A DNA stretch of 64,000 nt. Origin: Mugil cephalus. Its lineage: Eukaryota > Chordata > Actinopteri > Mugiliformes > Mugilidae. The notes beneath the pieces are model-generated. The model was not told the origin of the DNA, searched no databases, and worked only from the letters and a program-made list of their open reading frames with translations. The position numbers and the translations under genes were made by a program. How positions within the stretch are numbered: position 1 is the stretch's first letter; every line of letters starts with the position of its first letter. This document shows, piece after piece, positions 2,107 through 64,000 of the stretch. The stretch spans positions 33,138,690 to 33,202,689 of the forward strand of contig NC_061771.1 in the NCBI RefSeq assembly GCF_022458985.1. The letters are read 5' to 3'.

Positions 2107-2540
2107 TCCAGCACCAGACATCTCTTGTTGATCAAGACGGATCTGCTCTTAAGGCATTTTTAGGGGGAACAAATGTAATATAAAGATGTTTTTCTTCTTT
2201 CTGCCAGTGCTGACAAGAAGATGTAGGAGAGGTGGAACGAGGGGTATGTAAAAAGTATGTAAAGACCGATACGTTACAGACGTAACGTACTATAGCCAAG
2301 ATGCACATGGCTGCTGTTAGCTAACAACGCAGCAACACAACGGATATTTAATGCAACTTATAACGTTACGTTAAAACCCTCGTTATTTTTACGCTCTGAA
2401 TGCGCCGGCCTGTTCGAAACTTGGCTCGGGAACCGGAACCGGCGCAGAGCGCTGCCGGTGTGAAAGTCCTATGAGTGAACTCCCAGTGAGACCTGATGCC
2501 AAACGCATGGCTGAGAAAATATTTGTAATATATTTTATTA
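2107..2540. other. Flank between YR-SET copies A and F, no gene seen
   Basis: Similarity to copies B and C stops a few bases after the SET stop codon. The stretch holds an ACGTTACG-rich part and a GC-rich stretch near 2400-2460 with repeated GGAACCGG-like words, reminiscent of dispersed fish DNA-transposon sequence. I see no coding signal. Confidence 0.4.
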
Positions 2541-11291: not shown

Positions 11292-11384
11292 GTGTGCCTA
11301 GGCTAACTTATCCTATGAATAGAGCTCCCATGGACAATAGCCTTGTTAGAGCTCTATTCATAGGATAAGTTAGCCTAGGCACAC
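11292..11384. repeat. Near-perfect hairpin, 36-bp arms, MITE-like
   Basis: The left arm 11292-11327 is the reverse complement of the right arm 11349-11384, with a 21-bp loop. The arms contain CCTAGGCTAACTTATCC and its complement. The block 2 copy at 24962-25053 has several arm mismatches. It could be a miniature foldback element or a palindrome from a larger inverted duplication. I see no target duplication that I trust. Confidence 0.8.
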
Positions 11385-11509
11385 AGTTCCCCCCATTCAA
11401 GGACAGGTAAGTACCATTATATCATTATGGTAATTAGTGACCCCAGTTTCTGGTCAAGCAAGATTCGGTAGGTGTTACCCACAGAGTTTATTCCTATTTA
11501 AACCTCAAT

Positions 11510-11650
11510 TTCCCACTAGTTTATCAGAACTGAAGAAGCTACTCGGATGAAACGTCTTCAAGAAATTCTACATGTCCAGCTGACCTTATTCAACGCTTTT
11601 TTGGATTAAAATGACCTGGATGACTTAGAACCTTCACAGACAATGTCAGT
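11510..11650. repeat. Dispersed teleost repeat containing GAAACGTCTTCAAG
   Basis: The segment around CTGAAGAAGCTACTCGGATG and GAAACGTCTTCAAG recurs at about 25195-25300. It resembles a sequence I recall as common at retroelement ends in fish genomes. Family assignment from memory is uncertain. Confidence 0.4.
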
Positions 11651-11740
11651 GAGGATAGTTTATTGTATTATTGGTGGAGTTATTACATTACTGGGTTTTA
11701 TCACACTTTCAATCAAGTTAAGTGCAAATTTTATTACATT

Positions 11741-13758
11741 TTCAGGTGTGAGCGACCGAGCTGCAAAACATGAGGAGTCGCAGGTGGATTTTGAAAAATA
11801 AGGGCTTTATTTACCCAACAAATGAGAAACAAATTACAAAAACAAATAATTAATTCCAGGCCTATAGAACAGGTCAAACAAACAAAACTAAACTCAAGCT
11901 ATGATACCAAAGTATCCTGGCAAACCAACGACCTTAACAAACCTCATCGGACTGAACAAACAAATAGTGGCTGATCAGGCCAAGTACACAAAAGAGGGAA
12001 CATCATAACACTAACGCAATAGCTAACAACAAAAGAAACAACACAGGACAGCTAATTTACCAGTTAAATAAACTTTAGTTTAAACCAAACTCAAACTATT
12101 CAAATAACCAAATTTAACCCGATGAAATACACCAAACTAGTGAAACTAAATAGCCCCAGTCCCCCCTGCTGAAGCAGGCTCTTGGTTTGGCCTTATTGGC
12201 ACTTCCTGTATTTAAACAGACCCAGCCAGACGCGCCCCCCAGCAGCAGAAGCAAGGAACCCCTGGCACCGGTAAAACAGAAAAATGGATGAGAACAACTT
12301 AATAAATAATAGTTCATGAAGGTAAATATGTTTTAAAAATGGTTGATTATAACATGTTAAAAAACTTTTCTTTCAAGAGTCAGAGATAAAAAGGGCGTAG
12401 TTTAAAAATCTAATCATTTTGGTTGTCAGAAAGTCAAGAGACCACGTTTGTTGTGAAGTAGTGCAGCATCTTTTATTCTCTCATCTTTGTATGTGACATC
12501 ATCCGATCCAGTCCGCACGTGTTTCAGGTGGGAGGAGCTTAGAGTCACCGAAGTGCGCAACAGGTTCGCACCAGTAGAGGCTGCGTTTTTCCTGGCGTCC
12601 GAGCAGGAAAGTCAGCGGAACAAACTTCCAAGACTGACGGCGAGTCGTCATGTGGTGGATGTTGGTGAACTCTGGAAGCTGCCAGAGGTAAATTCATGTG
12701 TTTTAAGGTGCTAGGTGCTGTTGTTTATTTTTAATGTGTAAAACCGAGTTGAATCGCTAATTGCTGCTAGCCTTTAGCTTAGCCTCCTCGTACGCGTCCA
12801 CTCTGTTTATTCTGCATTGCAGCTAGCAATTGCTAATTTCTGTAAGAAATACTGTGGGTTTTTCGCCATGAAATAGACTGTATCTTAGTTACTAAACCTA
12901 ATTGTGTGATTCAGGATATTTGTCATAAGAGGGAGAGAGTGAGGACCGGGAGAGAAACTAGCTGTTGTACTTGAGCGTGGTTCATCGCACGTGTTCCTGC
13001 TCGCGCCATTCCCGTGCCGCTGACGCGCCATCTTGCCATTTGCCTCCTTCACCCCCATCGCCATCTGACTGTGAGGGTTCGTGAGTACACTTACATTGTG
13101 CACCTTTTTGTTTCTACTGGTTAACGCCAGTGAAGCGGCCATTTGTTTCCGGCCTCACGAGCATCGACTGGACCTGAAACGGTTTTATTTAGGTTAAGAT
13201 AAAAAGCCCGGTGTGAATGTGTGTGTGGGCTGGTGGACATTGAGTTTGCTGGTCGTTGTGACGAGATTCTATTTGGGTTCATCCGAGATCATTTGGGAGT
13301 TAAAGGTACCAGAGGATTATTTGAGAGTTTTGAATAGTATAAGGTCAACAGTGAACAAGTTACAATTTTATGAATGTAATAAATTTTCCTTTTGAACTTA
13401 ACATTCTGTGTGGTAATTACCAAAGTGATATTTTAGTTAAAATAAACAGATTAACAGAACTTTTATGTTAAAGGGGAAGTACAACCTTTGTATTTACTTC
13501 ATAGAATTTATTGGAGGCACCGCCAAGTTATTTTATATCATTATCACATGTAGCTCTAGACGAACTCAGGCCCTGTCCCACTTTACTGCAACACCCCCTT
13601 TTATTTGTCTGTTTTAACTGGCTACATGGGACTTGGGTTACATAAATATGTTTTGAGTCCCTGTTTTATTTTGATGGATCACAGATCTACAGAGATCACT
13701 GGTCAGAAAAACAGGCCTCCAACTGCGCAGGTTGATGAGCCCATATCAACATATGTAG
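11741..13758. other. Unassigned duplicated sequence, possible minus-strand LTR end
   Basis: Matches about 25420-27404. At 11747 it begins TGTGAGCGACCGAG. Read on the minus strand this would be an LTR-like end preceded by an AATAAA signal, so an old LTR is possible, but I could not find a matching second LTR. The part from 12430 to 12690 has a promoter or first-exon flavour with a splice-donor-like AGAGGTAAAT near 12686. A TTGGAGGCACCGCC word near 13513 could be a primer-binding-site remnant. No protein homology was recognised. Confidence 0.35.
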
Positions 13759-14162
13759 TGTGACGACCCCTGTCGTGGGCGTCTGAATTGTGAAAATGAC
13801 GTATGGTGGGTGTGTCTCACTACCTGTGTTTCCCTGAGGTTGCCATGGAGCCCGATTGACACCTGATGTGGAGCACCTGGACCCGGTGTTCTGCAGCTAC
13901 TTAAGCCTCTGATGGTCTCACTCTCTTCTCTTCTTCCTGCTCCGACCCAACTCACAGCCAGCGTCTATGCTTTTGTTTTTCATTACAACACTCGCACACA
14001 TTACATATACCCAGGCATCCACATCCTCACTACTGATTCCACTGATTTTCACATCCCACCGGTTTAACCCGTTATGTTTTGGGTATTCGATTATTTTCTG
14101 TGAAATAAAGTACTGGTAAATTCGCTCCCGCTCTTGTCCCTCCCATGTGCTTTGTTGTAACA
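13759..14162 (+). repeat. 5' LTR of Gmr1-like retroelement, copy 1
   Basis: Starts TGTGACGACCCC and ends GTAACA, 404 bp, with an AATAAA signal near 14105. It is followed immediately by AATGGGGACTCGTCGG, a primer-binding-site-like leader start. The same 404-bp unit occurs at 27405-27808, next to the same internal sequence. Confidence 0.7.
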
Positions 14163-15150
14163 AATGGGGACTCGTCGGCGTCTCGGTTACGTTACCTTTT
14201 TTGAGTTTTGTTACGGAGTAGCAAGAGGTCCTTTGCTCACCTGTCAGGGTTAGGTGACATGCTGTGGAGGCGCATTTCTGGAGGTTCCCGTTAGGCTTTA
14301 CGGCACTTTCTCCTTTGGGATTGTGTCCGTTTGTTTTTTTTTTTTCATAGTGTTGTGGGGAGCAGCTAGTGTTGGTTGCGCAAGCAACCATCTTGGGGGC
14401 ACTCCGTGGGATTGCTTGTGGTGGTCCCGCTGGTTTTGTGCTTAATCGACCCGCTGCAGAACCGCATGAAGACCAGGGTTGAGTTTAGTCAGATTCTGGG
14501 TTAGGCAGTCAGGGGAACGCTCTGGGGGGCATTGTTTGCTCATTTGTGCATCCAGCAGTGTCGATCCAGCTCTAAGGTGAATACGGATAGTTTGTTAGCT
14601 TTTTACGAAGCACCTTGTGCAGTGTTTTTGGAGTGTGCAGTTCCCAAGTTTTAAGGACTGCACGTGATGAAAGTGGTCACCTTGGCGTGTAAAAAATCTG
14701 TCGGTGCTCAAACATTTTTTCTGGCCACGGGCCAAGAAAGATGTAGCTGCCTATATTAAGACGTGTCATGTGTGCCAGCTCACGGGGAAACCCAACCAGC
14801 GCTTAAATCCAGCACCATTGCAGCCCATCTCTGTTGTGAGTGAACCGTTCGAATACCTGATTATAGACTGTGTGGGGCCTTTGTCTAGTGCTAAGTCGGG
14901 TTGTAAGTATCCGTTGACTGTAATGTGTCAGTGTACTCGTTACCCAGCTGCTTATCCGCTTCGTTCCATCACCACCAAAGCGGAAGTTAAAGCAGTAGCA
15001 CAGTTTATTTCAGTGTTCGGAATACCCAAGGTCAGGGTGATCGGGGGTCGAATTTTACTTTGCATGTGTTTGCTAAAGTGTTAAGAACGCTGGGAGTGAG
15101 CCACAATCGGTCCACTCCGTATCATGCGCAAAGTCAGGGTGCGTTAGAAC
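14163..15150 (+). pseudogene. Gmr1-like leader, gag stub and integrase fragment, copy 1
   Basis: The leader is followed by a short gag-like N-terminus (about 14586-14650), then directly by an integrase, so most of gag and protease is deleted. Integrase (14704-15140) shows a CHVC zinc-binding half-site, a first acidic residue in LIIDCVGPL, a second in DRGSNF and a third (Glu) near 15146. The last two are read after a one-base frameshift at about 15040. The integrase should catalyse cDNA joining, but this copy is broken. Copy 2 (27405-29690) shares the same frameshift and continues into reverse transcriptase, which shows the Gmr1-type gene order. The sequence stops at the YR-SET 3' flank near 15150. 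Confidence 0.75.
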
Positions 15151-15159
15151 GAGAAAGAC

Positions 15160-18140
15160 GGACACACAGGGGTTAACATGATGTACAGCAGTAACAGCAC
15201 AGACTTGAAGTCTGAACGTGACTAGTAACGGAAAACAAATGATATAAATGCCTCACCACTGTACAGTGCTGGATCAAGAATCCAGCCATTCCAGGTCCAG
15301 TCCTTCCCCTGCGAATGACTGCCTGCAAGGATGGTGCCTGTTTCTCCTTGGGGAAGCTTTAGCTTGCAGCGACGGGGCTTTGCATTGAACCTTTTCTTTG
15401 AGTGGTTCATGAGCCGTCCCACTGTCTCCATGTGCGGATGACACTCACAGGGGAACGTCTTGGCGTCCACGCAGAGCTCTTGAAAGAAGAAAAGGTAGCC
15501 CATCTCGTTGTCCATGCTCTGCATCATTCTTTTCCCCTCTGCCCTTCGTGATTAACCTGCAATGGTAATCGCAGATTACAGAGCCCTTTGCAAAGCGCTT
15601 AGTGGCAACAACTCCTGTGGGCAAAGGGAGGTGAGATTAATGAGGCTGTTCACGATATGATTGTATTTGTGTTAGGCTTTGACTGTGCTCACAAGACATT
15701 TGCACATACCTTTCCCCCTTAGGCTCACCAAACTCCTTGATGGTCAGACCTGACCACTTCTGAATGGTGACCTTCTTCATGATGCTTGGGTCATTTTCCA
15801 CCTGTGTCTGAGTGGGTGGACGCCACTTGGACACTACCAGCTGTGCTTGGGGAGTGTTGCCACTCCAGCCCTCCTTCTCGATGCGCCTTGCCACAGTCTG
15901 AACCGTGGGTGCTCGTCTGACAAACACGGCTGTAACAGAGGAGAGAACATTCACATTAAAGTTTTACACTTGTGAGCTGTAGATGTCATGTATACCCGAC
16001 CTAATCATTGACTGTCTACGTATTTACACTTACACAAGAGATGCTCCTCCCGCATGCCACGCTGCATAACCCTCCACTTGTCATGCAGCTCCCTGCCTTC
16101 ACTGAACCCAGCACTGACTCTGATCCGCTTGCAGGGGGATGGTGCATGTCTGAGATTGCTGCAAGGTGTGAACAGATTTTAGAGTAACAATGTTGTTACT
16201 AGATTCTGGCTGAGCCTTGTTTTAAGGGGAAAAGTACTTACTGTCATTCCTTCCACTGCTCCCGGTCTCTGGAAGTGTCCCAAGATCATTATGGCATCAC
16301 AGTAATAACGCAAATGTGTTACCGCGTCCTCACTCGGTGAAATGAAGCGATTTAAGAGTTCCATGGTATTAAGCGCGTCCTTCCTTCCAGCAGCCAGTAC
16401 CTTCTGACACTCCTTGATGATCTTCTTATATAACCTCAGTGTAGAGCAGACTGATGAGTATCAGTGACACAAGAGAACTCGTAAAAGGAGACAAAGAGTA
16501 GGCAGATTAACAACTGACCTGGTTTTACATATGGCCTTACTGTTTTCCTTGGCCACTGACTTTCTCATGACGCAGAGGTAGTCGATGTAGGTCTGGCGCT
16601 TCCTGTGGATGTCTAGATCCTTCGCAGCAACGTGAAGAAAGGTCTTCGCATACTGCACAAACCGGATCATGTTCTTTATGTAGTTGAGGATCGTGGCCGG
16701 ACTCAACTTGGCAAGTTTCAGGTCGCGCAGGTAATCGCTGACTTCAGTGCTTTTAGTGAGGAAATCTAAGCTAACTTCATCCCCTTCAGGCTGGATGTAT
16801 CTCAGCATCCTGGAGACATTGTCCACCTGTCATGAAAGATGAAGAGAAGCGTGAAATGATGCAAGAAAGCAGAGCCATGTGTGCTGAACTCTCTCTGACA
16901 CAGAGTGCATCTTTTTAAATAATATCCAGTGGTCTAGTAAGTCTCGTCTTATCTCTCTCCCTCACTCACACATACTGTGGAGCTACAGAAGAGCATAGAT
17001 TCAGGGTTATCTCTTACCTCCTGTTGGCAGTTTGGCACATTTAAGACGTTGATCAAATGCCTCTTGAACCCCATCAGCTTTTTACAATCGACTGGGAACT
17101 TCTGGTAGAGGCCCCTTGTCTGCATGTTCATCCGCACACAATTCTGGGAGAACTGAGGTGGATTTCTGAAAGAACAAAGCAACATTAGTTTCAAATCTGC
17201 AGACTGAAGCTGATCACTGTTTGAACTGGTGTGTGTCACACCGATGCGATGAACTTACCTTTGCCATGGTGGGTCATGTGAGCCAGCATCATCCTCGTGG
17301 GAATCAGTGGACCCCTCTTCACCAGTGCTTGAAGGCTCTACAGCACTGGCAGGTTCCTCCGTGGCAGCTGCACTCGCTGGTGGCATTTGGATGGGCTCCA
17401 AGTCTGCTGGGTTGGGGGCGTTGGCCACGAAAAAAACCCTGGTGTGAAGATCCTCCAGCAGAGCCAGTCTTGTTGCTCTGTCTGGGGAGCACTTGCACAT
17501 GGTATTGTAGTCCCAGTTTCGACCACCGCGTGTCCACGCCTTCATAGAGTCCTTGGCCCTCTTCAGCTCTGCCTGCCTCTCTTCATGAGTGCTGTTCTTC
17601 ATGCAGACCCGGGAAAGGTGGAGCGTTCCCCGGCCAACCAGTCTGCTGTCTGAAAAACACAGCAAGACAAGGATTGAATTACAGACATCAAGAGTCAAGG
17701 GACTATATTGTGTAAACACAATGGAATCCTGGTTTAAAATGCACACACATAATACACACAAACATTCATATAGAACAAATTCAAAAGTAAACAAATAAGC
17801 AGAGGGTGCCTTTATCCTCATTATCACCAGTGATTGAGACCAACAGAAATCTTCCCATGTGGACAAGATCCTTCTAAAGTAAATCCTCCTCCTCTGGTGT
17901 CACATCAGTGCAGCAGGATACATGCGCTTGTTGTTAGCTCAGCATATTGTCAAAGTGACTCAGTATTTCATTAATATTGTAGAAGCAATGTATTTGGCAT
18001 CCATTGCGCCATCCCTCTGCGGCATGTTTGAATAAAGCACCGTAAGTAGATGTACTACTGTGTTGTGTGTGTGTGTGTGTAATTGATTTAGTAGCTTTGA
18101 TTAGTGTGCACATTGTTTGCTGTTGTCCTAAAGGTTGGGT
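15160..18140 (-). pseudogene. YR-SET fusion gene, copy B (recombinase core and SET active site deleted)
   Basis: Minus-strand copy. It has exon 1 (about 17648-17259, charged N-terminal region), exon 2 (about 17166-17020), exon 3 (16826-16519, YR core-binding-like helices), exon 4 (to about 16240, QRPGAVEGMT), the 3' part of exon 8 (about 16140-16030), exon 9 (about 15949-15710) and the SET exon (about 15620-15290). A deletion near 16141 joins intron 4 to the middle of exon 8 and removes exons 5-7, which carry the K, second R, H and Y catalytic positions. In the SET exon a deletion of roughly 60 bp near 15328 removes the EEIRFDYG segment, and there is an additional frame disturbance. About 250-500 bp of 5' flank shared with copies C and D is included. 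The copy is inactive for both domains. Confidence 0.75.
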
Positions 18141-19992: not shown

Positions 19993-20526
19993 ATGTGCTC
20001 TTAACATTTAAAATGAGAGAATAAAGGGCACTTTGTGTTTATTCTTTTGTTTTTTATTTGTAGTAAGTGTAGTAACAACAGGAGGCCACTGTGCAGATCG
20101 GGAGGGTTAGGGGTTAATGACGTATACTGAGCCTTGCATTCAATAAATAGATATGATTAAGAGAAAATGAAATCATTCAGTGCTGAGAGTGAATGGATTT
20201 GTGCTCCTTTGCAGCTTTGGAACTGGAGACGGCCAACCCTTTCTGAAGGGAGCAGGAGCAGCAGACTGGTGTGGCTCACTACACGGCCCATTCAGCCTCC
20301 GTTGCAAAGCAGCATTACCGGATGAGGACGCGCCAGGAGACCGGTGTCACTGGGAACGTGCTGCAGAGCTTTAGAAGGTATGCATGGTGGTCTGATACAC
20401 AGAGAAAGTCCTGTGTTCTCACTGCGGCGTCTCCCTTCTAAACCAATGCCTCTCTCTCTTTCAATGCAGCTCAAAGAGATTTTCGTCGAAGCCCTCAGCG
20501 AGCTCTTGATCATTGAGGAGCAGTAA
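19993..20526 (+). pseudogene. YR-SET remnant E (recombinase exon 7 and a small downstream exon)
   Basis: Upstream sequence matches 2690-2890. After a TTTGCAG acceptor (to about 20214), exon 7 is shortened by loss of the TSREIRR part and carries a stop, but keeps the nucleophile region (VAKQHYRM at about 20300-20325). It ends at a donor near 20379. A possible next exon (about 20470-20526) after TTTCAATGCAG ends in a stop and is not seen in the other copies. I cannot say whether that small exon is real. Confidence 0.5.
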
Positions 20527-23557: not shown

Positions 23558-24618
23558 CAGGCATGTCAAACATACGGCCCGCGGGCCGGACCCGGCCCGT
23601 TGGGTCATTTAATCCGGCCCGGCATAAATTTCTGAGTATGTCAAAAAAAGAAGCGAGTCTCTAGCTAATTTCTATTAAAAGTTGTGATTTTTTAAAATAA
23701 ATACAAACCAAATGCTCCCTCCGGCCGCTAGAGGGCAGTAAATGTGTAAAAGCGCTCACGTCAAGCATGCGGCACTGACACGAGTTAGTCACAGGAAATA
23801 AACATTCGCAACGTGATGTGTCCAAGTAAAAAAAACCGGCAATCTTGCTTCACCATTCACCACTACTAAACAAGTTATCGGTCAAAACACCCTTCCCAAA
23901 ATGGCACTGTCAAAAAAAAGAAGAGTGGACACGGAGTGCAGAGTTTTCCAGGAGAAATGGACCGAGAAGTATTTATTCACAGAAGTGAATGCAAAACCAG
24001 TGTGCTTGGTATGTAATCAGCAAGTTGCAGTGTTCAAAGAGTTTAATATTCGGCGCCACTCATCATAAAGACAAGTATGTCATGTTAAAGACAATTAATA
24101 TTGTGCAGTATATTCTCAGCTTCAGTAGGCCCAGCCTAGTAGTTTGATCTGATGTAGTCTAATCCTATTGCCCATGCACTGCTATAACTTTTTTATTTAT
24201 TTATTTGTTTTATTTTATATTTATTTTTTCATTTATTTCAGAGCAGTATGACAATTAAGGCGAAAATATTTTTTTATAGCTCCCACTTGAGTTTGTTTAG
24301 TGTGGTGAGTTGGTTCAGGTGTAAAACTGCATTCACTCAACTGTTAAAATAAACCAGTTGTTAACACATTCACGGCCAAACATGAAAAATCATTTTTTTC
24401 CCATTGTTTTTGAATAAATGTGTTGTGCTTAGAAAAGATCCCTTGTCATCCGTGATTATAATATGTAGGGTAGGCTACAAATGTAGGCTGAATGATAAAG
24501 CATAGTACTGAAAAACAAAGCTAAATATTTGGAGTTGACATTCTTTTACTGATCCGGCCCACCTGAGAACAGAAAGTCTGGATCCGGCCCCAGAGCCAAA
24601 CTGAGTTTGACATGCCTG
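23558..24618 (+). mobile_element. hAT (Charlie-like) element with 8-bp target duplication
   Basis: The terminal inverted repeats begin CAGGCATGTCAAAC and end GTTTGACATGCCTG. They are flanked by an identical 8-bp CCCTAGAA at 23550-23557 and 24619-24626, which is the hAT signature. The corresponding site in block 1 (near 10950) is unoccupied. At 23901-24065 it keeps a transposase N-terminus (KRRVDTECRVF, KPVCLVC) like the BED-type zinc finger of GTF2IRD2/Charlie-related transposases, ended by stops. The rest of the transposase is deleted, so it is non-autonomous. Confidence 0.9.
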
Positions 24619-24626
24619 CCCTAGAA

Positions 24627-27404
24627 TGCACTGTTGGTTTTGCTGACAGTTGTCAGTGAAGATAGTCCTCATGAAGGTCAGAGTTCAGTAAACCTCCAGC
24701 TCATCTCCACTGCCATTGTTCTGGAGGGAGGTATCATCATGGATCATATTAAAAACTTATCTCAGGCAGTTTGTCTGTTATTTGGGCTTACATAGGCTTA
24801 CACAGGTAATAACAGCTAAATAGATAAGAAATGGGAGAGAGGGAGAAAAGAAGGACAAGGACACATTCAAGGAAATTGGTTTGTTTAATTTAAGTGAACT
24901 TAAAAAAAAAAAAAAAAAAGAGTGAGTAGCGAGTAGTCGGTATTTCGTAATTCTAAGTAGGGTGTACCTAGGCTAAGTTATCCTATGAATTGAGCTCCCA
25001 TGGACAATAGCCTTGTTAGAGCTCTATTCATAGGATAAGTAGCTTAGGCACACAGTTCCCCCCATTCAAGGACAGGTAAGTACCATTATATCATTATGGT
25101 AATTAGTGACCCCAGTTTCTGGTCAAGCAAGTTTCGGGTGGGTATTACCCACAGAGTTTATTCCTATTTAAACCTCATTTTCCCACTAGTTTATCAGAAC
25201 TGAAGAAGCTACTCGGATGAAACGTCTTCAAGAAATTCTACAAGTCCAGCTGACCTTATTCAACGCTTTTTTGGATTAAAATGACCTGGATGACCTGGAT
25301 GAGAACCTTCACAGACAATATCAGTGAGGATATTTTATTGCATCATTGGTGAAGTTATTACGTTACTGGGTTTTATCACATTTTCAATCAAGTTAACTGC
25401 AAATTTTATTACATTTTCAGGTGTGAGCGACCGAGCTGCAAGACATGAGGAGTCGCAGGTGGATTTTGAAAAATAAGGGCTTTATTTACCCAACAAATGA
25501 GAAACAAATTACAAAAACAAATAATTAATTCCAGGCCTATAGAACAGGTCAAACAAACAAAACTAAACTCAGGCTATGATACCGAAGTATCTTGGCAAAC
25601 CGACGACCTTAACAAACCTCATCTGACTGAACAAACAAATAGTGGCTGATCAGGCCAAGTACACAAAAGAGGGAACATCATAACACTAACACAATAACTA
25701 ACAACAAAAGAAACAACGCAGGACAGCTAATTTACCAGTTAAATAAACTTCAGTTTAAACCAAACTCAAACTATTCAAATAACCAAATTTAACCAAACTA
25801 GTGAAACTAAATAACCCCAGTCCCCCCTGCTGAAGCAGGCTCTTGGTTTGGCCTTATTGGCACTTCCTGTATTTAAACAGACCCAGCCAGATACCCCCCA
25901 GCAGCAGAAGCAAGGAACCCCTAGCACCGGTAAAACAGAAAAATGGATTAGAACAACTTAATAAATAATAGTTCATGAAGGTAAATATGTTTTTAAAAAA
26001 TGGTTGATTATAACATGTTAAAAACTGTACTTTCAAGAGTCAGAGATAAAAAGGGTGTAGTTTAAAAATCTAATCATTTTGGTTGTCAGAAAGTCAAGAG
26101 ACCACGTTTGTTGTGAAGTAGTGCAGCATCTTTTATTCTCTCATCTTTGTATGTGACATCATCCGATCCATCCGCACGTGTTTCAGGTGGGAGGAGCTTA
26201 GAGTCACCGAAGTGCGCAACAGGTTCGCACCAGCAGAGGCTGCGTTTTTCCTGGCGTCCGAGCGGGAAAGTCAGCGGAACAAACTTCCAAGACTGACGGC
26301 GAGTCGTCATGCGGTGGATGTGGGTGAACCCTGGAAGCTGCCAGAGGTAAATTCATGTGTTTAAGGTGCTAGGTGCTGTTGTTTATTTTTATTGTATAAA
26401 AACCCGAGCTGAATCGCTAATTGCTGCTAGCCTTTAGCTTAGCCTCCTCGTAGGCTTCCACTCTGTTTATTCTGCATTGCAGCTAGCAATTGCTAATTTA
26501 TGTACGAAAAACTGTGGGGTTTTCGCCATGAAACAGCCTGTAGCTTAGTTACTAAGCGTAGCTGTGTGATTCCGAAAATTTGCCATAAGAGGGAGAGAGT
26601 GAAGACCGGGAGAGAAACTAGCTGTTGTACTTGAGCGTGATTCATCGCACGTGTTCCTGCTCGCGCCATCTTGCCATCGCCTCCTTCCCCCCATCGCCAT
26701 CTCTGACTGTGAGGGTTCGTGAGTACACTTACATTGTGCACCTTTTTGTTTCTACTGGTTAACGCCAGTGAAGCAGCCATTTGTTTCCGGCCTCACGAGC
26801 ATCGACTGGACCTGAAACGGTTTTATTTAGGTTAAGATAAAAAAAGCCCGGTGTGAATGTGTGTGTGGGCTGGTGGACATTGAGTTTGCTGGTCGTTGTG
26901 ACTAGATTCTATTTGGGTTCATCCGAGATCATTTGGGAGTTAAAGGTACCAGAGGATTATTTGAGAGTTTTGAATAGTATAAGGTCAACAGTGAACAAGT
27001 TACAATTTTATGAATGTAATAAATTTTCCTTTTGAACTTAACATTCTGTGTGGTAATTACCAAAGTGATATTTTAGTTAAAATAAACAGATTAACAGAAC
27101 TTTTATGTTAAAGGGGAAGTACAACCTTTGTGTTTACTTCTTAGAATTTATTGGAGGCACCGCCAAGTTATTTTATATCATTATCACAGTTATCACATGT
27201 AGCTCCAGACGAACTCAGGCCCTGTCCCACTTTTCTACAACACCCTCTTTTATTTGTCTTAACTAGCTACATGGGACTTGGGTTACATAAATATGTTTTG
27301 AGTTCCCTGTTTTATTTTGATGGATCTCAGATCTACAGAGATCACTGGTCAGAAAAACAGGCCTCCATCTGCACAGGTTGATGAGCCCATATCAACATAT
27401 GTAG
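24627..27404. other. Segmental-duplication block 2, remainder
   Basis: Matches 10956-13758, including the hairpin (24962-25053, with arm mismatches) and the dispersed repeat (25195-25300). There are minor indels, for example near 26680 where block 1 has extra sequence. No convincing gene is present. Confidence 0.7.
24962..25053. repeat. Hairpin, block 2 copy
   Basis: Diverged counterpart of 11292-11384. The left arm differs from the right-arm complement at several positions, for example GTACCTAGGCTAAG, and one base is lost in the right arm. Confidence 0.7.
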
Positions 27405-27808
27405 TGTGACGACCCCTGTCGTGGGCGTCTGAATTGTTAAAATGACGTATGGTGGGTGTGTCTCACTACCTGTGTTTCCCTGAGGTTGCCATGGAACCCG
27501 ATTGACACCTGATGTGGAGCACCTGGACCCGGTGTTCTGTAGCTACTTAAGCCTCTGATGGTCTCACTCTCTTCTCTTCTTCCTGCTCCGGCCCAACTCA
27601 CAGCCAGCGTCTATGCTTTTGTTTTTCATTACAACACTCGCACACATTACATATACCCAGGCATCCACATCCTCACTACTGATTCCACTGATTTTCACAT
27701 CCCACCTGTTTAACCCGTTATGTTTTGGGTATTCAATTATTTTCTGTGAAATAAAGTACTGGTAAATTCGCTCCAGCTCTTGTCCCTCCCATGTGCTTTG
27801 TTGTAACA
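27405..27808 (+). repeat. 5' LTR of Gmr1-like retroelement, copy 2
   Basis: 404-bp LTR, TGTGACGACCCC to GTAACA, with the same leader following as in copy 1. No matching 3' LTR is seen downstream. Confidence 0.7.
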
Positions 27809-29690
27809 AATGGGGACTCGTCGGCGTCTCGGTTACGTTACCTTTTTTGAGTTTTGTTACGGAGTAGCAAGAGGTCTTTTGCTCACCTGTCAGGGTTAGG
27901 TGACATGCTGTGGAAGCGCATTTCTGGAGGTTCCCGTTAGGCTTTACGGCACTTTCTCCTTTGGGATTGTGTCCGTTTGTTTTTTTTTTTTTCATAGTGT
28001 TGTGGGGAGCAGCTAGTGTTGGTTGCGCAAGCAACCATCTTGGGGGCACTCCGTGGGATTGCTTGTGGTGGTCCCGCTGGTTTTGTGCTTAATCGGCCCG
28101 CTGCAGAACCGCATGAAGACCAGGGTTGAGTTTAGCCAGATTCTGGGTTAGGCAGTTAGGGGAACGCTCTGGGGGGCATTGTTTGCTCATTTGTGCATCC
28201 AGCAGTGTCGATCCGGCTCTAAGGTGAATACGGATAGTTTGTAAGCTTTTTACGAAGCGCCTTGTGCAGTGTTTTTGGAGTGTGCAGTTCCCAAGTTTTG
28301 AGGACTGCACGTGATGAAAGTGGTCACCTTGGCGTGTAAAAAATCTGTCGGTGCTCAAACATTTTTTCTGGCCACGGAGCAAGAAAGATGTAGCTGCCTA
28401 TATTAAGACGTGTCATGTGTGCCAGCTGATGAGGAAACCCAACCAGCGCTTAAATCCAGCACCATTGCAGCCCATCTCTGTTGTGAGTGAACCGTTCGAA
28501 TACCTGATTATAGACTGTGTGGGGCCTTTGTCTAGTGCTAAGTCGGGTTGTAAGTATCCGTTGACTGTAATGTGTCAGTGTACTCGTTACCCAGCTGCTT
28601 ATCCGCTTCGTTCCATCACCACCAAAGCGGAAGTTAAAGCAGTAGCACAGTTTATTTCAGTGTTCGGAATACCCAAGGTCAGAGTGATCGGGGGTCGAAT
28701 TTTACTTTGCATGTGTTTGCTAAAGTGTTAAGAACGCTGGGAGTGAGCCACAATCGGTCCACTCCGTATCGTGGGCAAAGTCAGGGTGCGTTAGAGTGAT
28801 TCCATCAGACGCTGAAAGGCTCAGGTGAAAATGAAAGCCCGGTATGACCAGGGTACGGTGCGCCATGAATATAGTCCTGGGGACCAGGTCCTCGCGCTGA
28901 CACCGCTGGTCACGTCGCCATTTCAGGCTAAATTTATTAGCCCGTATACTGTGTCTGAAAAAGTTTCTGATGTTGACAATCGTGTCGCTACACCAGGTCG
29001 AAGGAAGTCGTCTCTGCTATATCATGTGAACCTGCTGAAGCCGTATTACCAGCGGTGAGTGCGTTAAAAAAGTGACATGGGTCCAGCGCTCGCCGTGGAC
29101 GCCTGTGGTGTGGTGCAGGAGAAAGACGGCGTTCCTGAGCCTGATGATGGTCTGTTGAGTGGTAGGTTAAAGAATTGAGTCTTTGTGTAATCTGCATTCC
29201 CGGTTGTTACACCTGACCGAAGAGCAGCGTGTCGAGTTGTTGGAGCTAATCGGTAGATTTCCACAGCTGTTTGGGGATGTTCAATCGCGCACATCTTGGA
29301 TTGAGCACATAGATATGAGATATTGATGTGGGCGAGGCGCAGCCGATCAGACAGCGGTTTTACCGCACGAGTCCTAAAAACCTTGAACACTGACATAGAT
29401 TACATGTTAAACTGGTATTGCCATTCCATCTGCATCAAGCTGGGCGTCTCCTTATGTGTTGGTGCCGAAATTAGATCAGACTCTGCGGTTTTGCACAGAC
29501 ATGAGGAAGGTTAATTCTGTCACTAAATCTGATTCATTCCCGTTGCCACGCATGGAAGATTGTCAAAACTCCAAACCAGAGACTGGTCAGATGGTCTCTC
29601 TTTTTACGGGGTCATGATTTAGACATACGCCACATTAAAGGGCAAGATAATATCCTGGCAGACGCTTTGTCGAGGGCGCCTCTGCCTTAG
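27809..29690 (+). pseudogene. Gmr1-like retroelement interior: integrase before RT and RNase H
   Basis: Order on the plus strand: leader, gag stub (about 28230-28300), integrase zinc finger and core (28351-28800, same one-base shift as copy 1), integrase C-terminal region (28825-29058, ends LLYHVNLLKPYYQR), then a reverse transcriptase N-terminus (about 29210-29560: LTEEQRVELLELI, RQRFYR, SFPLPRMED). It closes with an RNase H tail (29580-29690: IRHIKGQDNILADALSRAP). Integrase ahead of RT is the unusual order known from Gmr1 elements. Gag-protease and most of RT are deleted, with several frameshifts and stops. It is non-functional. Confidence 0.75.
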
Positions 29691-30186: not shown

Positions 30187-30304
30187 AGAGGGACACACAG
30201 GGGTTAACATGATGTACAGCAGTAACAGCACAGACTTGATGTCTGAACGTGACTAGTAACAGAAAACAAATGATATAAATGCCTCACCACTGTACAGTGC
30301 TGGT

Positions 30305-30702
30305 TCAAGAATCCAGCCATTCCAGGTCCAGTCCTTCCCCTGAGAATGACTGCCTGCACACGCCGTAGTCGAAGCGGATCTCCTCACCCACTTCCATGTC
30401 CCTGCTGGCCAGGAGGAGGATGGTGTTGGTTTCTCCTTGGGGTAGCTTTAGCTTGCAGCGACGGGGCTTTGCATTGAACCTTTTCTTTGAGTGGTTCATG
30501 AGCCGTCCCATTGTCTCCATGTGCGGATGACACTCACAGGGGAACGTCTGGGCATCCACGTAGAGCTCTTGAAAGAAGAAAAGGTAGCCCATCTCGTTGT
30601 CCATGCTATGGATCATTCTTTTCCCCTCTGCCTTCGTGATTACCCTGCCATGGTATTTGCAGATTACGGAGCCCTTTGAAAAGCGCTTGGTGGCAACAAC
30701 TC
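30305..30702 (-). CDS. Open SET-domain exon of YR-SET copy C (KMT5A-like)
   Basis: Terminal exon of copy C, open from the acceptor (CCCACAG before 30702) to the stop at 30305. It reads as a compact SET lysine-methyltransferase domain: N-terminal GVVATKRFSKGSVICKYHG, a Tyr-rich FFF segment, GRLMNHS (cofactor-binding NHS), ILLLASRDMEVGEE and FDYG with the catalytic Tyr. Arrangement and length are close to the C-terminus of KMT5A (SETD8), which methylates histone H4 Lys20 as a monomer. Pre-SET and post-SET zinc clusters are absent, also as in KMT5A. Activity and substrate are inference. Copies A and B each lack one half of this domain, so C is the only full version in the window. Confidence 0.75.
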
Positions 30703-31474
30703 CTGTGGGCAAAGGGAGGTGAGATTAATGAGGCTGTTCACGATATGATTGTATTTGTGTTAGGCTTTGACTGTGCTCACAAGACATTTGCACATACCTT
30801 TCCCCTTTGGCTCACCAAAAGCCTTGATGGCCAGACCTGACCACTTCTGAATGGTGACCTTCTTCATGATGCTTGGGTCACTTTCCACCTGTGTCTGAGT
30901 GGGTGGACACCACTTGGACACTACCAGCTGTGCTTGGGGAGTGTTTCCACTCCAGCCCTCCTTCTCGATGCGCCTTGCCACAGTCTGAACCGTGGGTGCT
31001 CGTCTCACAAACACGGCTGTAACAGAGGAGAGAACATTCACATTAAAGTTGCACACTTGTGAGCTGTAGATGTCATGTATACCCGACCTAATCATTGAGT
31101 GTCTACGTATTTACACTTACACAAGAGATGCTCCTCCCGCATGCCACGCTGCATAACCCTCCACTTGTCATACAGCTCCCTGCCTTCACTGAACCCAGCA
31201 CTGACTCTGATCCGCTTGCAGGGAGGCTGCCCATTCAATGTTACTGGGAATTTGGAGAGAAACGCCGTCATGTTCTGTTTCTTTCTCTTCCGAATCAGTC
31301 TCTTCCTCTCTGCCTCTCTTCTGTGACTGACCAGCCCTCCCGTCAGTTGAATCCTCAGAAGATCTGCAAGATTAAAAAGGTTTTAAGGTTAACCACTAAC
31401 CACTGACAATCAGATCAGACCTCTGTAAGGCAAATAATGACTCAATGTTGTGTGTATCAGACCACCGTGCATAC

Positions 31475-32743
31475 CCTCTTAAGCTCTGCAGCAGGTTGCT
31501 AGTGACAACAGTCTTGTGAAGTGTCCTCATCCGATAATGTTGCTTTGCAACGGAGGTTGAATGGGCCATGTAGTGCGCCACACCAGACTGCTGCTCCTCT
31601 GTGAAGGTGTTGGCCGCCTCCGTTTCTACAACCCTCCTGATCTCCCGACTCGTCACATTCTCACATTTGTAGCTGGAATGGGGCAGAAATCTCAGATTAC
31701 ACATCCACTCTCTGCACTGAATGATTTCATTTTCTCTTTCTCTCCCCAACCCTCTTGATCTGCACAGTACACACAGCATATGCATGGCCTCCTGTTGTTA
31801 CTTACTATTCGTGCAGACGAGCCACATCATTGGTGGCACTTGCAATGGGCCGGCCCCATTTGGACAGGAAAAATCTGCCTTCATTCTCTACTTCTGGGTC
31901 GACGGACTTTGCGCGGATATGTTCAAAATATGCCTGAAATATCTGTGGAGACAGAATATGAATGAAGTTAATGTCTGTGGAGTTGCTAAATGTGTCGCTG
32001 TAACACATGGTGAGCCATTTCAGCCTGTTGGAGAACTTACTGCCTCCTCCTCCCCAGTCAGGGCAAATGTAGCTATTTGCATCGTGGTCGTCTTGTGCCT
32101 GCTGGCACCAACACAGACTCTGCCATCAGAATTCTTCCTTTCCAACCAGTCTGCTGTCTGGAAAACACAGAAGACGAGGTGTGAATTACAGACATCAAGA
32201 ATCAAGAGACTATATTGTGTAAGAACAATGGACTCCTGGCTTTAAATGCGCACGCATAATACACAGCCATTCTAATAAAACAAAAGAATAAGCAGAGGGT
32301 GCCCTTTATTCTCTCATTATCACCAATGATTAAGACCAACAGAAATCTTCCCATGTGGACAAGATCCTTGTAAAGTAAACACTCCTCTCTGGCTTCACTT
32401 TAATGTGAGCATGGCTCTGTCTGTGGCTGCGGGGGACGGTGCATGTCTGAGATTGCTGCAAGGTGTGAACAGATTTTAGAGTAACACTGTTACTAGATTC
32501 TGTCTGAGCCTTGTTTTAAGGGGAAAAGTACTTACTGTCATTCCTTCCACTGCTCCTGGTCTCTGGAAGTGTCCCAAGATCATTATGGCCTCACAGTAAT
32601 AGCGCAAATGTGTTACCGCATCCTCACTCGGTGAAATGAAGCGATTTAAGAGTTCCATAGTATTGAGCGTCTCCTTCCTTCCAGCAGCCAGTACCTTCTG
32701 ACTGTCCTTGATGCTCTTATGCCCCCCCATGAAGTACTTATAC
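31475..32743 (-). pseudogene. Tyrosine-recombinase catalytic exons 4-7 of copy C
   Basis: Four exons that together carry Crypton-type YR landmarks. Exon 4 has QRPGAVEGMT (first Arg). Exon 5 has VSRHKTTT (lysine hairpin). Exon 6 has FFLSKWGRPI and VARLHE. Exon 7 has TSREIRR (second Arg), VAHYMAHS (His) and VAKQHYRM (Tyr nucleophile). Phases agree across 4-5, 5-6 and 6-7. In known Cryptons this domain cuts and joins DNA through a 3'-phosphotyrosine without target duplications. The four exons themselves look open, but the copy as a whole is broken elsewhere, so this is annotated as part of a pseudogene. Confidence 0.75.
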
Positions 32744-34499
32744 CTTGAATAAAACACAAGACCACAATGAGGAGCAGCACTACATGTTTCTGTATCACAT
32801 AACCTCAGTGTAGAGCAGACTGATGAGTATCAGTGACACAAGAGAACTCGTAAAAGGAGACAAAGAGTAGGCAGATTAACAACTGACCTGGTTTGACATA
32901 TGGCCTTACTGTTTTCCTTGGCCACTGACTTTCTCGTGACACAGAGGTAGTCGATGTAGGTCTGGCACTTCCTGTGGAAGTCTGGGTCCTTCACACCAAC
33001 GTGAAGAAAGGTCTTCGCATACTGCACAAACCGGATCATGTTCTTTATGTAGTTGAGGATCGTGGCCGGACTCAACTTGGCAAGTTTCAGGTCTCGCAGG
33101 TAATCGCTGACTTCAGTGCTTTTAGTGAGGATACTAAGCTAACTTCATCCCCTTCAGGCTGGATGTATCTCAGCATCCTGGAGACATTGTCCACCTGTCA
33201 TGAAAGATGAAGAGAAGCGTGAAATGATGCAAGAAAGCAGAGCCATGTGTGCTGAACTCTCTCTGACACAGAGTGCATCTTTTTAAATAATATCCAGTGG
33301 TCTAGTAAGTCTCGTCTTATCTCTCTCACTCACTCACACATACTATGGAGCTTCAGAAGAGCATAGATTCAGGGTTATCTCTTACCTCCTGTTGGCAGTT
33401 TGGCACATTCAAGACGTTGATCAAATGCCTCTTGAACCCCATCAGCATTTTACAATGGACTGGGAACTTCTGGTAGAGGCCCCTTGTCTGCATGTTCATC
33501 CGCACACAATTCTGGGAGAACTGAGGTGGATTTCTGAAAGAACAAAGCAGCTTTAGTTTCAAATCTGCAGACTGCAACCTTGGTGAAACTCAAGCTGATC
33601 ACTGTTTGAACTGGTGTGTGTCACACCGATGCGATGAACTTACCTTTGCCATGGTGGGTCATGTGAGCCAGCATCATCATCGTGGGAATCAGTGGACCCC
33701 TCTTCACCAGTGCTTGAAGGCTCTACAGCACTGGCAGGTTCCTCCGTGGCAGCTGCACTCGCTGGTGTAAAGGTCCTCCAGCAGAGCCAGCCTTGTTGCT
33801 CTGTCTGGGTAGCGCTTCCACATGGTGTTGTAGTCCCAGTTTCGGCCACCGCGTGTCCACGCCTTCATAGAGTCCTTGGCCCTCTGCAGCTCTGTCTGCC
33901 TCTCTTCATGAGTGCTGTCCTTCATGCAGACCCGTAAAGGTGGAGCGTTCCCTGGCCAACCAGTCTGCTGTCTGAAAAACACAGAAAGACAAGGTGTGAA
34001 TTACAGACATCAAGAATCAAGAGACTATATTGTGTAAACACAATGGACTCCTAGTTTAAAATGCACACACATAATACACACAAACATTCATATAGAACAA
34101 ATTCAAAAGTAAACAAACAGAGGGTGCCTTTATCCTCTCATTATCACCAATGATTAAGACCAACAGAAATCTTCCCATGTGGACAAGATCCTTCTAAAGT
34201 AAATCCTCCTCTCTGGTGTCACATCAGTGCAGCAGGATACATGCGCTTGTTGTTAGCCCAGCATATTGTCAAAGTGACTCAGTATTTTATTAATATTGTA
34301 GAAGCAATGTATTTGGCATCCATTGTGCCATCCCTCTGCGGTATTTGAATAAAGCACCGTAAGTAGATGTACTACTGTGTTGTGTGTGTGCGTGCAATTG
34401 ATTTAGTAGCTTTGATTCGTGTGCACATTGTTTGCTGTTGTCCTAAAGGTTGGGTCAATTAAACCGAGTTGAACATTGGGCTGGAGGTTGGCTGAGTGT

Positions 34500-35675
34500 T
34501 GGCTGGTGGTCACGGTGACTGTTGGAGCCATTTTCCCCAGTCAGGCTTTAGTGGCGTTGCTCCTTTGGGCTTCGCTGGGTTTTTTTTTTTTTTCTTTTCT
34601 CTCTCCAGTAGTGCTGTGGTGAAATTGGTTAGAGCTCTGTCTAGTTAGAGGGGATTGTGTGCTCTGTTTGTGGTCCTGTTGGGCTTTGTGTTGTGTTCAA
34701 GAGGTAACAGTAGTTTGTCTTTTCTTTTCTTTCTTTTTTTTTTTCTTCTCCTAAAAGAAGTGCCACGGCTGAATGTTTTAGGGCCTGTCTGAGGTGCTTT
34801 TGGAGAGGTGCACAAAGGAGCAGGAAAAAAAAACCTTGATCACTATGAGGTTGACATTTCTGACAAGACTAAAGGACAACATAAAAGGCATTTTGAAGAA
34901 ACCGATCAGACGACAGTGAAGTGAACTTTCCACCTGTGTCATGTCTCACTTTAACTGTCTAGATCTGACAGAACTTGACAATATTGTTGGTCACCAACCT
35001 GCTGCCTGGATCCTCTCCCAACTGCATTTTTCAAAACTGTCTTTAACTCCCAAGCATCAGAGGTTCTACATGTCATTAACTGGTCTCTTCAGTCGGGTAT
35101 ATTTCCCACGTCACTAAAAACAGCTGTCATCAAACCACTCCTGAAGAAGAACAATCTGGATCAATGTGTCATTGCAAATTATAGGCCCATCTCCAACTTA
35201 CCATTTCTTAGCAAAATACTTGAAAAAACAGTTTACATTCAGCTCAAGAATTATCTGGCATCAAATAGCCTTTTAGACACTTGTCAGTCTGGTTTTCGTC
35301 CCCACCATAGCACAGAAATGGCACTTATTAAAGTTATAAATGATCTACGTACAAACACAGACTCCAAAAAACTCTCGATTCTTGTTCTACTTGATCTTAG
35401 CTCTGCGTTTGACACCGTTGACCACAAAATCTTACAGGAAAGGCTTGAAAGGTGGGTTGGCTTGTCTGACCCAGTTCTAAATTGGTTCAGAACCTACCTT
35501 TATGATCGGCAGTTTTATGTCTCCATTGGTGAATTCAATTCGAACAAAGTGAACTTTATATGTGGGGTACCTCAAGGGTCAATTCTTGGACCACTGCTGT
35601 TCAGTCTCTACATGCTTCCACTCTCTCATGTCATACGCAAACATAATCTTAGTTACTAGTCCTAGTTAGTAATGG
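34500..35675 (+). mobile_element. Gmr1-like gag stub with L2 fragment, copy 2 (3' end removed by hAT)
   Basis: 34500-34920 repeats the leader and gag stub of 18180-18775, with a deletion near 34640. 34930-35675 is the L2 RT fragment (FDTVDHKILQ, GVPQGSILGPLLF), here without the stop present at 19375. It ends abruptly at 35675, where the hAT terminus begins. The C-terminal half present in the other two copies is missing. Confidence 0.75.
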
Positions 35676-38518: not shown

Positions 38519-40350
38519 CTTCTGACACTCCTCGATGCTCTTATGCCCCCCCATGAAGTACTTATACCTGGAATAAAACACAAGACCACAATGAGGAGCA
38601 GCACTACATGTTTCTGTATCACATAACCTCAGTGTAGAGCAGACTGATGAGTATCAGTGACACAAGAGAACTCGTAAAAGGAGACAAAGAGTAGGCAGAT
38701 TAACAACTGACCTGGTTTTACATATGGCCTCACTGTTTTCCTTGGCCACTGACTTTCTCGTGACACAGAGGTAGTCGATGTAGGTCTGGCACTTCCTGTG
38801 GAAGTCTGGATCCTTCACACCAACGTGAAGAAAGGTCTTCGCATACTGCACAAACCGGATCATGTTCTTTATGTAGTTGATGATCGTGGCCAGACTCAAC
38901 TTGACAAGTTTCAGGTCGCGCAGGTAATCGCTGACTTCAGTGCTTTTAGTGAGGAAATCTAAGCTAACTTCATCCCCTTCAGGCTGGATGTATCTCAGCA
39001 TCCTGGAGACATTGTCCACCTGTCATGAAAGATGAAGAGAAGCGTGAAATGATGCAAGAAAGCAGAGCCATGTGTGCTGAACTCTCTGACACAGAGTGCA
39101 TCTTTTTAAATAATATCCAGTGGTCTAGTAAGTCTCGTCTTATCTCTCCCTCACTCACACATACTGTGGAGCTACAGAAGAGCATAGATTCAGGGTTATC
39201 TCTTACCTCCTGTTGGCAGTTTGGCACATTTAAGACGTTGATCAAATGCCTCTTGAACCCCATCAGCATTTTACAATGGACTGGGAACTTCTGGTAGAGG
39301 CCCCTTGTCTGCATGTTCATCCGCACACAATTCTGGGAGAACTGAGGTGGATTTCTGAAAGAACAAAGCAGCTTTAGTTTCAAATCTGCAGACTGCAACC
39401 TTGGTGAAACTCAAGCTGATCACTGTTTGAACTGGTGTGTGTCACACCGATGCGATGAACTTACCTTTGCCATGGTGGGTCATGTGAGCCAGCATCATCC
39501 TCGTGGGAATCAGTGGACCCCTCTTCACCAGTGCTTGAAGGCTCTACAGCACTGGCAGGTTCCTCCGTGGCAGCTGCACTCGCTGGTGGCATTTGGATGG
39601 GCTCCAAGTCTGCTGGGTTGGGGGCGTTGGCCATGAAAAAAACCCTGGTGTGAAGGTCCTCCAGCAGAGCCAGTCTTGTTGCTCTGTCTGGGGAGCGCCT
39701 GCACATGGTGTTGTAGTCCCAGTTTCGACCACCGCGTGTCCACGCCTTCATAGAGTCCTTGGCCCTCTGCAGCTCTGTCTGCCTCTCTTCATGAGTGCTG
39801 TTCTTCATGCAGACCCGGGAAAGGTGGAGCGTTCCCCGGCCAACCAGTCTGCTGTCTGAAAAACGCAGAAAGACAAGGTGTGAATTACAGACATCAAGAA
39901 TCAAGAGACTATATTGTGTAAACACAATGGACTCCTGGTTTAAAATGCACACACATAATACACACAAACATTCATATAGAACAAATTCAAAAGTAAACAA
40001 ACAGAGGGTGCCTTTATTCTCTCATTATCACCAGTGATTAAGACCAACAGAAATCTTCCCATGTGGACAAGATCCTTCTAAAGTAAATCCTCCTCTCTGG
40101 TGTCACATCAGTGCAGCAGGATACATGCGCTTGTTGTTAGCTCAGCATATTGTCAAAGTGACTCAGTATTTTATTAATATTGTAGAAGCAATGTATTTGG
40201 CATCCATTGCGCCATCCCTCTGCGGTATTTGAATAAAGCACCGTAAGTAGATGTACTACTGTGTTGTGTGTGTGTGTGTAATTGATTTAGTAGCTTTGAT
40301 TAGTGTGCACATTGTTTGCTGTTGTCCTAAAGGTTGGGTCAATTAAACTG
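38519..40350 (-). pseudogene. YR-SET fusion gene, copy D (5' exons intact, truncated by hAT)
   Basis: Exon 1 (39855-39465), exon 2 (39354-39207), exon 3 (39019-38712) and the start of exon 4 (38567-38519) are present with consensus splice sites, and the frame is continuous across all four. The likely start is the Met at 39808-39806 (MKNSTHEERQ). The N-terminal region is charged, with TRGGRNWDYNTM and an acidic Ser/Glu stretch before PPWQR. Exon 3 has FLTKSTEVSDYLRDL and helices typical of a YR core-binding domain. The rest of the gene is removed at the hAT border. About 500 bp of 5' flank shared with B and C is included. This copy best shows the N-terminal half. Confidence 0.75.
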
Positions 40351-48490: not shown

Positions 48491-48703
48491 ACTTTCTTCC
48501 ACATTCTTATGCTCAGTTTGAACTTCAGCAAGTTGTCTTAATCACCTCTACCTGAGTAAATGCATTGAATTGCAGCCATTTGATTGGCTGATTAGCTATG
48601 TTTTGCTAACAAGCAATTGAACAAGTCTAGGGTTAAAGCATAAAGGCATGAAATAATCTTTCAAATGATGTCACATACCTGATATTTAGTTTGTCTGTTT
48701 CAG

Positions 48704-49298
48704 GTATGCAACACCAGGCATGTTCAGTCTGGCTGTGAGGATCCCATATCATGGGAACCTCAACCAGAACCTTAAGGAGGTTTTTACCAGTGATCCTGGG
48801 AACAACGTGACGAATACGATCAACAATGATGAGGTGTACTCCGGCAAAAGGGTGGTTGCTGCAAAAGCTAGGCCTTCTGATCATGCAGAGTCACGGGTCG
48901 TGGACCACTTGGACGATTTGTTCGAGCAGCGTAATGATAACGATAAGGATTTGTTGCTTTTCTATGTTTATGCCTCCCCATGTGTTGAAAAATGTACAAA
49001 TGAGAACAATCCTGGATGCATCCTGAAACGTATTGAAGGCATCCGTAAATGGAAAAATTATGCTTTTGTGTTTTCAACAATATTCAAACCCCGCACTGGT
49101 CCATGCAACACGCCCATAGAGCGAAGCAGAGCCCTTGAGAGGCTCGGTCGCTCAGTCGGTCTCAACAATATATTCAGATGTGATCAGAACGGTTGCACAT
49201 GCTGCTCCGCTGGGACCGAAGTTGCTGACTCCTGTGTTTCAGATCCCACCAACACCAATACTTTTCACGTTGAGGGCACCATGCGCAAGACAAAGTAG
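48704..49298 (+). CDS. Secreted deaminase-like gene 1, catalytic exon (SNAD-like)
   Basis: Exon after the acceptor TGTCTGTTTCAG (ends 48703), open to the stop at 49296-49298. It begins YATPGMFSLAVRIP. It then carries SDHAESRVVDHL, giving the His and Glu of a cytidine-deaminase HAE motif, and YASPCVEKC, giving the two further zinc-ligand Cys as PC-x3-C. Both sit in the order and spacing of AID/APOBEC-like deaminases. A later FKPRTG and a Cys-rich CDQNGCTCC tail suggest disulphides, fitting a secreted protein. I liken it to the secreted AID/APOBEC-like deaminases (SNADs) described in ray-finned fish. No signal-peptide exon is seen upstream, where L2 sequence lies. The starting phase fits the exon 1 donors at 51608, 55253 and 62458. 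Activity and substrate are unknown. Confidence 0.65.

Positions 49299-62473: not shown

Positions 62474-64000
<1,527 letters not shown>

Follow-up and report, generated by a model that had tools for sequence, protein, structure and literature searches.

Results

Organization of the locus

We analysed a 64,000-nucleotide stretch of the genome of the fish Mugil cephalus (assembly GCF_022458985.1, contig NC_061771.1, positions 33,138,690 to 33,202,689; hereafter the window, with positions counted from its first letter), in which exons resembling a tyrosine recombinase (YR) lie in front of exons encoding a SET domain. The best preserved copy of this arrangement, copy C, has ten exons on the minus strand (33925-30305), and all nine of its introns begin with GT and end with AG. 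Read 5′ to 3′, a YR-like domain with motifs in exons 4-7 is followed by a SET domain, by its sequence of the KMT5A type, in exons 9-10, which ends at its own stop codon. A first-pass annotation, made from the letters alone, had described a multi-exon gene fusing a Crypton-like YR to a KMT5A-like SET domain; all of the motifs that it quoted were found where it had put them, in minus-strand exons flanked by GT-AG introns.

Exon 1 of copy C (33644-33925, counted from the first ATG; donor GTAAGT) lacks 62 bp that copies B and D have, a deletion that shifts the frame, and exon 2 (33386-33533) is entered in phase 2 and left in phase 0. Exon 3 (32888-33194) covers what is predicted to be the core-binding (SAM-like) part of the YR, with weak matches to SAM-like and XerA families, and has lost 1 bp that is present in copies A, B and D. 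YR box I, FQRPGAVEGMT, with the putative catalytic Arg, lies in exon 4 (32536-32743), SRHKT with the presumed β-hairpin Lys in exon 5 (32041-32157) and the YR stretch FFLSKWGRPIASATN in exon 6 (31806-31942). Exon 7 (31475-31672) holds box II, that is TSREIRR, in which Arg replaces the His of HxxR, then MAHS and QHYRM with the presumed nucleophile Tyr, and ends in phase 2 at the donor GG/GTATGC. Exon 8 (31121-31363) encodes the FLSKFPV bridge; its main acceptor is out of frame with exon 7 and its in-frame acceptors are weaker. Exon 9 (30798-31016) contains PTVQTVARRIEKEGW and the start of the SET domain, KGKG, and exon 10 (30305-30702) the rest of that domain, with NHS, FDYG and the stop codon (30305). 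The reading frame of copy C is thus broken twice, in exons 1 and 3, so that the annotation's description of the locus as a gene was not confirmed.

Intron 4 together with the first bases of exon 5 (32142-32398) is repeated with 87% identity just upstream of exon 1 of copy C (33956-34222), and copies B and D have this upstream unit as well. Judging from this repeat, the acceptor region in front of exon 1 seems to derive from that of exon 5.

A KMT5A-type SET domain with Phe in place of Tyr334

Exon 10, which is open to its stop codon, matched the Pfam SET profile on its own (E 3.4e-13). The first residues of the domain come from exon 9: the joined protein enters the profile at position 1, and exon 10 alone at position 3. 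When compared with solved structures, to which this comparison was confined, 14 of the 16 PDB sequences matched at E ≤1e-3 were KMT5A/SETD8 (best E 3.5e-15), and the other two reached 1.2e-4 and 1.6e-4. Copy C retains NHS and DYG. The annotation's KMT5A-like SET domain was thereby supported.

The fish sequence does not have the Tyr typical of KMT5A at the position of Tyr334. It has Phe: the motif reads FDYG in both copies A and C, and the alignments set it against FDYG in 3f9w and YDYG in 5teg. Tyr334 gives KMT5A its monomethyl specificity, and the Y334F mutant gains dimethylation. By analogy, Phe at this position suggests that the ancestral enzyme would have carried out di- rather than only monomethylation, and a natural Phe here makes for a specific biochemical prediction. 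In a table of PMC3529403, structures 3F9W-3F9Z are given as the KMT5A Y334F mutant, and one of these structures includes a dimethyl-lysine peptide.

The upstream exons resemble a tyrosine recombinase

Five residues of the upstream part of copy C correspond to the YR catalytic set: Arg in FQRPGAVEG, Lys in RHKT, Arg in REIRR, His in MAHS and Tyr in QHYRM. They occur in recombinase order, with spacings of 30 (R to K), 75 (K to R), 25 (R to H) and 9 (H to Y). Among 3,000 residue shuffles, the tightest motif pattern was never found, a looser one was found in 16 and the loosest in 415; the tightest pattern is biased, since the patterns were written after the sequence had been seen. We also built a profile from nine known recombinases, aligned from named records. 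At the catalytic positions of XerD and Cre, R, H, R, H/W and Y were common to all nine, and the column of the XerD Lys held Lys in eight. This profile scored the fish sequence at E 0.004 as a single target, a score equalled or exceeded by 96 of 4,369 scored shuffles (5,000 made). In a MAFFT alignment the fish R, H and Y fell under R148, H270 and Y279 of XerD, and hhalign aligned XerD 116-223 with R148 on the fish Arg. Weak, non-significant SAM-like matches lie where the core-binding domain is expected.

A number of results count against a recombinase. None of the curated YR profiles in Pfam, NCBIfam and PHROGs was significant. The Pfam matches were a SAM-like N-terminal family, at 0.023 with the exon 3 open reading frame (ORF) and at 0.12 with the joined protein, and a second SAM-like family at 0.028 with that ORF; those in NCBIfam were archaeal XerA (0.033), a secretion-inhibitor family (0.0024) and a sigma factor (0.077), all far under the cut-offs; and PHROGs gave a single unknown family at 0.1. 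PDB sequences gave no match to the YR part at E up to 10. The hhalign comparison with the nine YRs reached P 0.077 only, and in the MAFFT alignment the fish Lys and second Arg were out of register; these two are assigned from their spacing alone. Where HxxR has His, both copies that retain that part, A and C, have Arg (REIR). AlphaFold modelled exon 3 alone with a predicted local distance difference test (pLDDT) score of 55, and its 11 PDB matches, all at E above 3 and none a recombinase by title, were discarded; exon 7 alone was modelled with pLDDT 85 and had no PDB match at E up to 10. On balance, we consider a YR fold likely for the part encoded by exons 3-7. The annotation's recombinase therefore stands in motif order, spacing and a partial register with XerD and Cre, and is left without a significant curated profile.

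The junction between the two parts

With the best splice sites, eight of the nine junctions preserve the frame (1-2, 2-3, 3-4, 4-5, 5-6, 6-7, 8-9 and 9-10; exon 1 was judged on copies B and D, and exon 3 on each side of its break). The only one that does not, in copy C and in copy A, is 7-8, where YR would be linked to SET, which speaks against a single protein: exon 7 leaves two bases, and the FLSKFPV frame of exon 8 requires one. In copy C the GTATGC donor is in frame with seven weaker acceptors, two of which are of the CAG type (31326 and 31320); in copy A it is in frame with three only, all of the GAG type, a further point against the join. Copies A and C differ by a 3-bp and an 8-bp indel in the GA-rich 5′ part of exon 8, so the frame mismatch may itself be a product of decay. 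The GTATGC donor, itself a good one, and a good acceptor, TTTTTAATCTTGCAG, bound a 111-bp interval that resembles the other introns. Exon 8 has an ATG in frame (MTAFLSKFPV...) ahead of the SET part; upstream of this ATG, codon usage slightly favours the FLSKFPV frame (score 0.14, versus 0.04 and -0.07 for the other two). We consider the fusion proposed in the annotation likely but unproven, because the junction that links its halves is out of frame with the best sites.

Further copies and their duplication

None of the copies in the window is intact, and copies A, B and D are more damaged than C. Copy A (1-2114, plus strand) is cut by the window start and comprises parts of exons 3 and 4 and exons 5-8; of exon 9 it has the 5′ part, the 3′ part being lost, and of exon 10 the 3′ part, without the 5′ half. 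Its exon 6 donor is changed from GT to GA, and the 8-bp indel in exon 8 is a deletion relative to C. Copy B (15264-17611, minus strand) has exons 1-3, the 3′ part of exon 4, the 3′ end of exon 8 and exons 9 and 10, with exons 5-7 absent; it carries one additional base pair relative to C in each of exons 9 and 10, and a 58-bp deletion removes FDYG. Copy D (38519-39817, minus strand) holds exons 1-3 and breaks off within exon 4, of which the first part is left; it has no SET. An older, diverged fragment, X (19996-20387, plus strand), keeps the exon 6 donor and intron 6 and, of exon 7, the second half with the same donor site; in that half the DNA is 86% identical over 134 bp. The fragment has an in-frame stop. 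A second piece of this fragment (2676-2971, plus strand) is 95% identical to 19996-20288.

Blocks of up to 3.6 kb match among copies B, C and D at 92-98%, and the flanks are shared, as expected of segmental duplicates. Copy A is a partial inverted copy of C (96.5% over 1.8 kb). In addition, a 4.2-kb block at 10951-15148, which directly adjoins copy B, is repeated with 95.5% identity at 24618-28795, about 1.4 kb from copy C. Judging from these blocks, the copies in the window probably multiplied mainly by duplication of large pieces of DNA and not by transposition of the gene. The homology of A to B and C stops about 9 bp past the SET stop codon (2105-2125 versus 30287-30297), a point that could mark the end of an element or be a breakpoint by chance; the other end of A is cut by the window. 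An integrase zinc-binding match at 28318-28731 has a twin at 14671-15084 within the 4.2-kb repeated block.

Exons diverge about as much as the rest of the sequence. Exon versus non-exon divergence was 3.5 and 4.1% versus 2.8 and 2.5% in two blocks shared by C and B, 2.5% versus 1.9% between C and D, and 1.8% versus 2.7% between C and A in block 186-1933, the only one compared. The ratio of nonsynonymous to synonymous rates (dN/dS) ranged from 0.49 to 1.68 over the six pairs that copies A-D form, based on few changes and with gapped and stop codons omitted. Together, these values point to near-neutral decay of the copies. The dN/dS values obtained against fragment X (0.80 and 0.83) were discarded, as its homology does not extend to the 5′ half of exon 7. 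Since fragment X still shows, at 86% identity, the sequence of intron 6 and the donor of exon 7, the family predates the present duplications and spread as DNA with its introns.

The annotation had taken the same order of YR and SET in copies A and B as a sign that the fusion was no accident of neighbourhood. That support falls away: the copies are DNA duplicates, B lacks exons 5-7 and has a broken SET domain, and duplication of one block with YR next to SET gives the same pattern whether or not the two formed one gene. Conservation of the bridge between copies was likewise rejected as a sign of function, because in recent DNA duplicates the introns are about equally conserved.

Discussion

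We read the copies in the window as decayed pseudogenes of one multi-exon fish gene family. The ancestor, with a probability that we put at about 55%, encoded a single protein with an N-terminal YR fold, a linker from exons 8-9 and a C-terminal KMT5A-type SET domain. The order of the exons, their intron sites, the homology of the SET domain, the spacing of the YR residues, the lesions, the duplication of blocks and the near-neutral decay were observed; that the two parts shared one protein, and any activity or target of that protein, we infer. A pairing of this kind would be unusual. In such a protein, the YR fold would have been the DNA-binding part, and may also have cut and rejoined the DNA; by binding, it would have brought the SET domain to the chromatin at that place, where the latter may have methylated a histone lysine, by analogy with KMT5A that of H4K20. 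A stronger form of this proposal seems rather doubtful to us: a fish element or domesticated gene whose single product united a YR that retained all of R, K, R, H and Y with a KMT5A-derived methyltransferase carrying a natural switch of the Y334F type, and marked the chromatin where it recombined DNA.

The alternative that we take most seriously, although we think it somewhat unlikely, is that two head-to-tail genes were duplicated together, a YR gene of exons 1-7 and a KMT5A-like gene running from the ATG of exon 8 through exon 10. Such a pair would account for the frame being lost, in copies C and A alike, at just the one junction between them, and would give the in-frame ATG ahead of the SET part a use; moreover, the copies that hold both parts all derive from one block. 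It leaves without an explanation the intron-like 111 bp between the GTATGC donor and the TTTTTAATCTTGCAG acceptor, the former of which is kept even in the older fragment X, and the mild codon preference for the FLSKFPV frame upstream of that ATG, while the two indels of exon 8 make a frameshift by decay equally likely. If there were two neighbouring genes, the locus would be an ordinary tandem pseudogene cluster.

We find it still harder to see the locus as a mobile Crypton-like YR element that carried SET as cargo and wrote chromatin at its insertion site, which strikes us as very doubtful. All five catalytic residues are present, the homology between A and C stops shortly past the stop codon as it might at the end of an element, and YR elements with their own DNA methyltransferase are described in PMC5890265. 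However, ten exons with nine introns, flanks common to B, C and D and further breakpoints of A, B and D that fall inside the gene do not fit an element, nor does the lack of a DUF3504 match; according to PMC3212892, moreover, a C-terminal domain is absent from animal Cryptons. We regard as highly improbable that the upstream part is no recombinase at all, its motifs being a chance likeness in an unrelated helical domain ahead of a KMT5A-like SET. The silence of Pfam, PHROGs, NCBIfam and the PDB sequences would then be explained, as would the best NCBIfam match being the unrelated secretion-inhibitor family and the frequency of the loosest motif pattern in shuffles; the order and spacing of the five residues would not, nor would the register with XerD, seen by hhalign around R148 and after it and by MAFFT at R, H and Y.

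The single ancestral protein that we favour would share features with several known systems. With KMT5A (SETD8, PR-Set7), the H4K20 monomethyltransferase, it has in common a SET domain that starts with GKG, contains NHS and DYG and lies C-terminally with the stop close behind; it differs in that its SET is diverged, with Phe for the human Tyr334, and has YR exons in front. SETMAR, too, combines a SET methyltransferase with an enzyme from a transposon, in its case a mariner DDE transposase. There, however, the transposase stands behind SET, whereas here the YR stands in front, and the SET of SETMAR was a much weaker match (3bo5, E 1.6e-4 versus 3.5e-15 for KMT5A); no mariner or other transposase domain was found in the scanned exons of copy C. 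Should there be intact relatives, they would pair a DNA recombinase with a histone lysine methyltransferase, adding a second type of chimera to that of SETMAR, and would allow a direct test of whether the enzymes of mobile elements write chromatin where they bind.

Cryptons and the Crypton-derived DUF3504 genes (KCTD1, ZMYM2-4, QRICH1 and KIAA1958) are alike in having a eukaryotic YR or a derivative of one. According to PMC3212892, DUF3504 originates from the Crypton YR and many domesticated members are transcriptional regulators. The fish gene, in contrast, has nine introns, a C-terminal SET domain and no match to PF12012 (DUF3504) in the joined protein at E up to 10, a range in which the HMMER filters drop most matches above 0.1. 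We therefore rejected the Crypton label of the annotation, given also that the SET exons follow on the same strand, unlike in animal Cryptons, and keep only the description of a eukaryotic-looking YR. SymbioDIRS-Dnmt3 retrotransposons (PMC5890265) resemble the fish gene as YR-encoding elements with their own epigenetic writer; that writer is a DNA cytosine methyltransferase within the Pol polyprotein, the YR is in a separate ORF and a reverse transcriptase is present. No reverse transcriptase, the mark of DIRS and Ngaro elements, was found in the eight minus-strand ORFs of 30305-34000 or in the joined protein, the nearest being at 34979-35659 on the opposite strand.

No YR-SET protein was recognized in the open-licence literature (titles and the starts of abstracts, among the matches listed), a scope outside which most subscription papers lie; in two reviews that mention both, PMC9406493 and PMC10380595, 'Crypton' and 'SET domain' stand in unrelated passages. 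Scans of viral and prokaryotic contigs with the YR and SET parts gave no relative, which means little for a fish gene. The PANTHER family PTHR33480, which may bring together fish proteins labelled 'SET domain-containing' and 'Tyr recombinase domain-containing', is a lead only; no paper in the open-licence full-text literature was found to contain its accession.

Other features of the window

Downstream of the YR-SET array, the window contains two pieces of SNAD1-type secreted AID/APOBEC-like deaminase genes on the plus strand (48690-49298 and 53719-54135; PF18744, E 2.5e-22 and 8.2e-11, respectively). SNAD1 is known only from fish. A Tc1/Sleeping-Beauty-type transposase at 62790-63863 (plus strand) is long and open save for one in-frame stop between its helix-turn-helix and DDE parts, and remains of Tc1, Gypsy, LINE and hAT elements are also present in the window. 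Together with SNAD1, these remains give it a content in keeping with ray-finned fish DNA. Long overlapping open frames on both strands at 8077-9637 probably reflect base composition and not genes.

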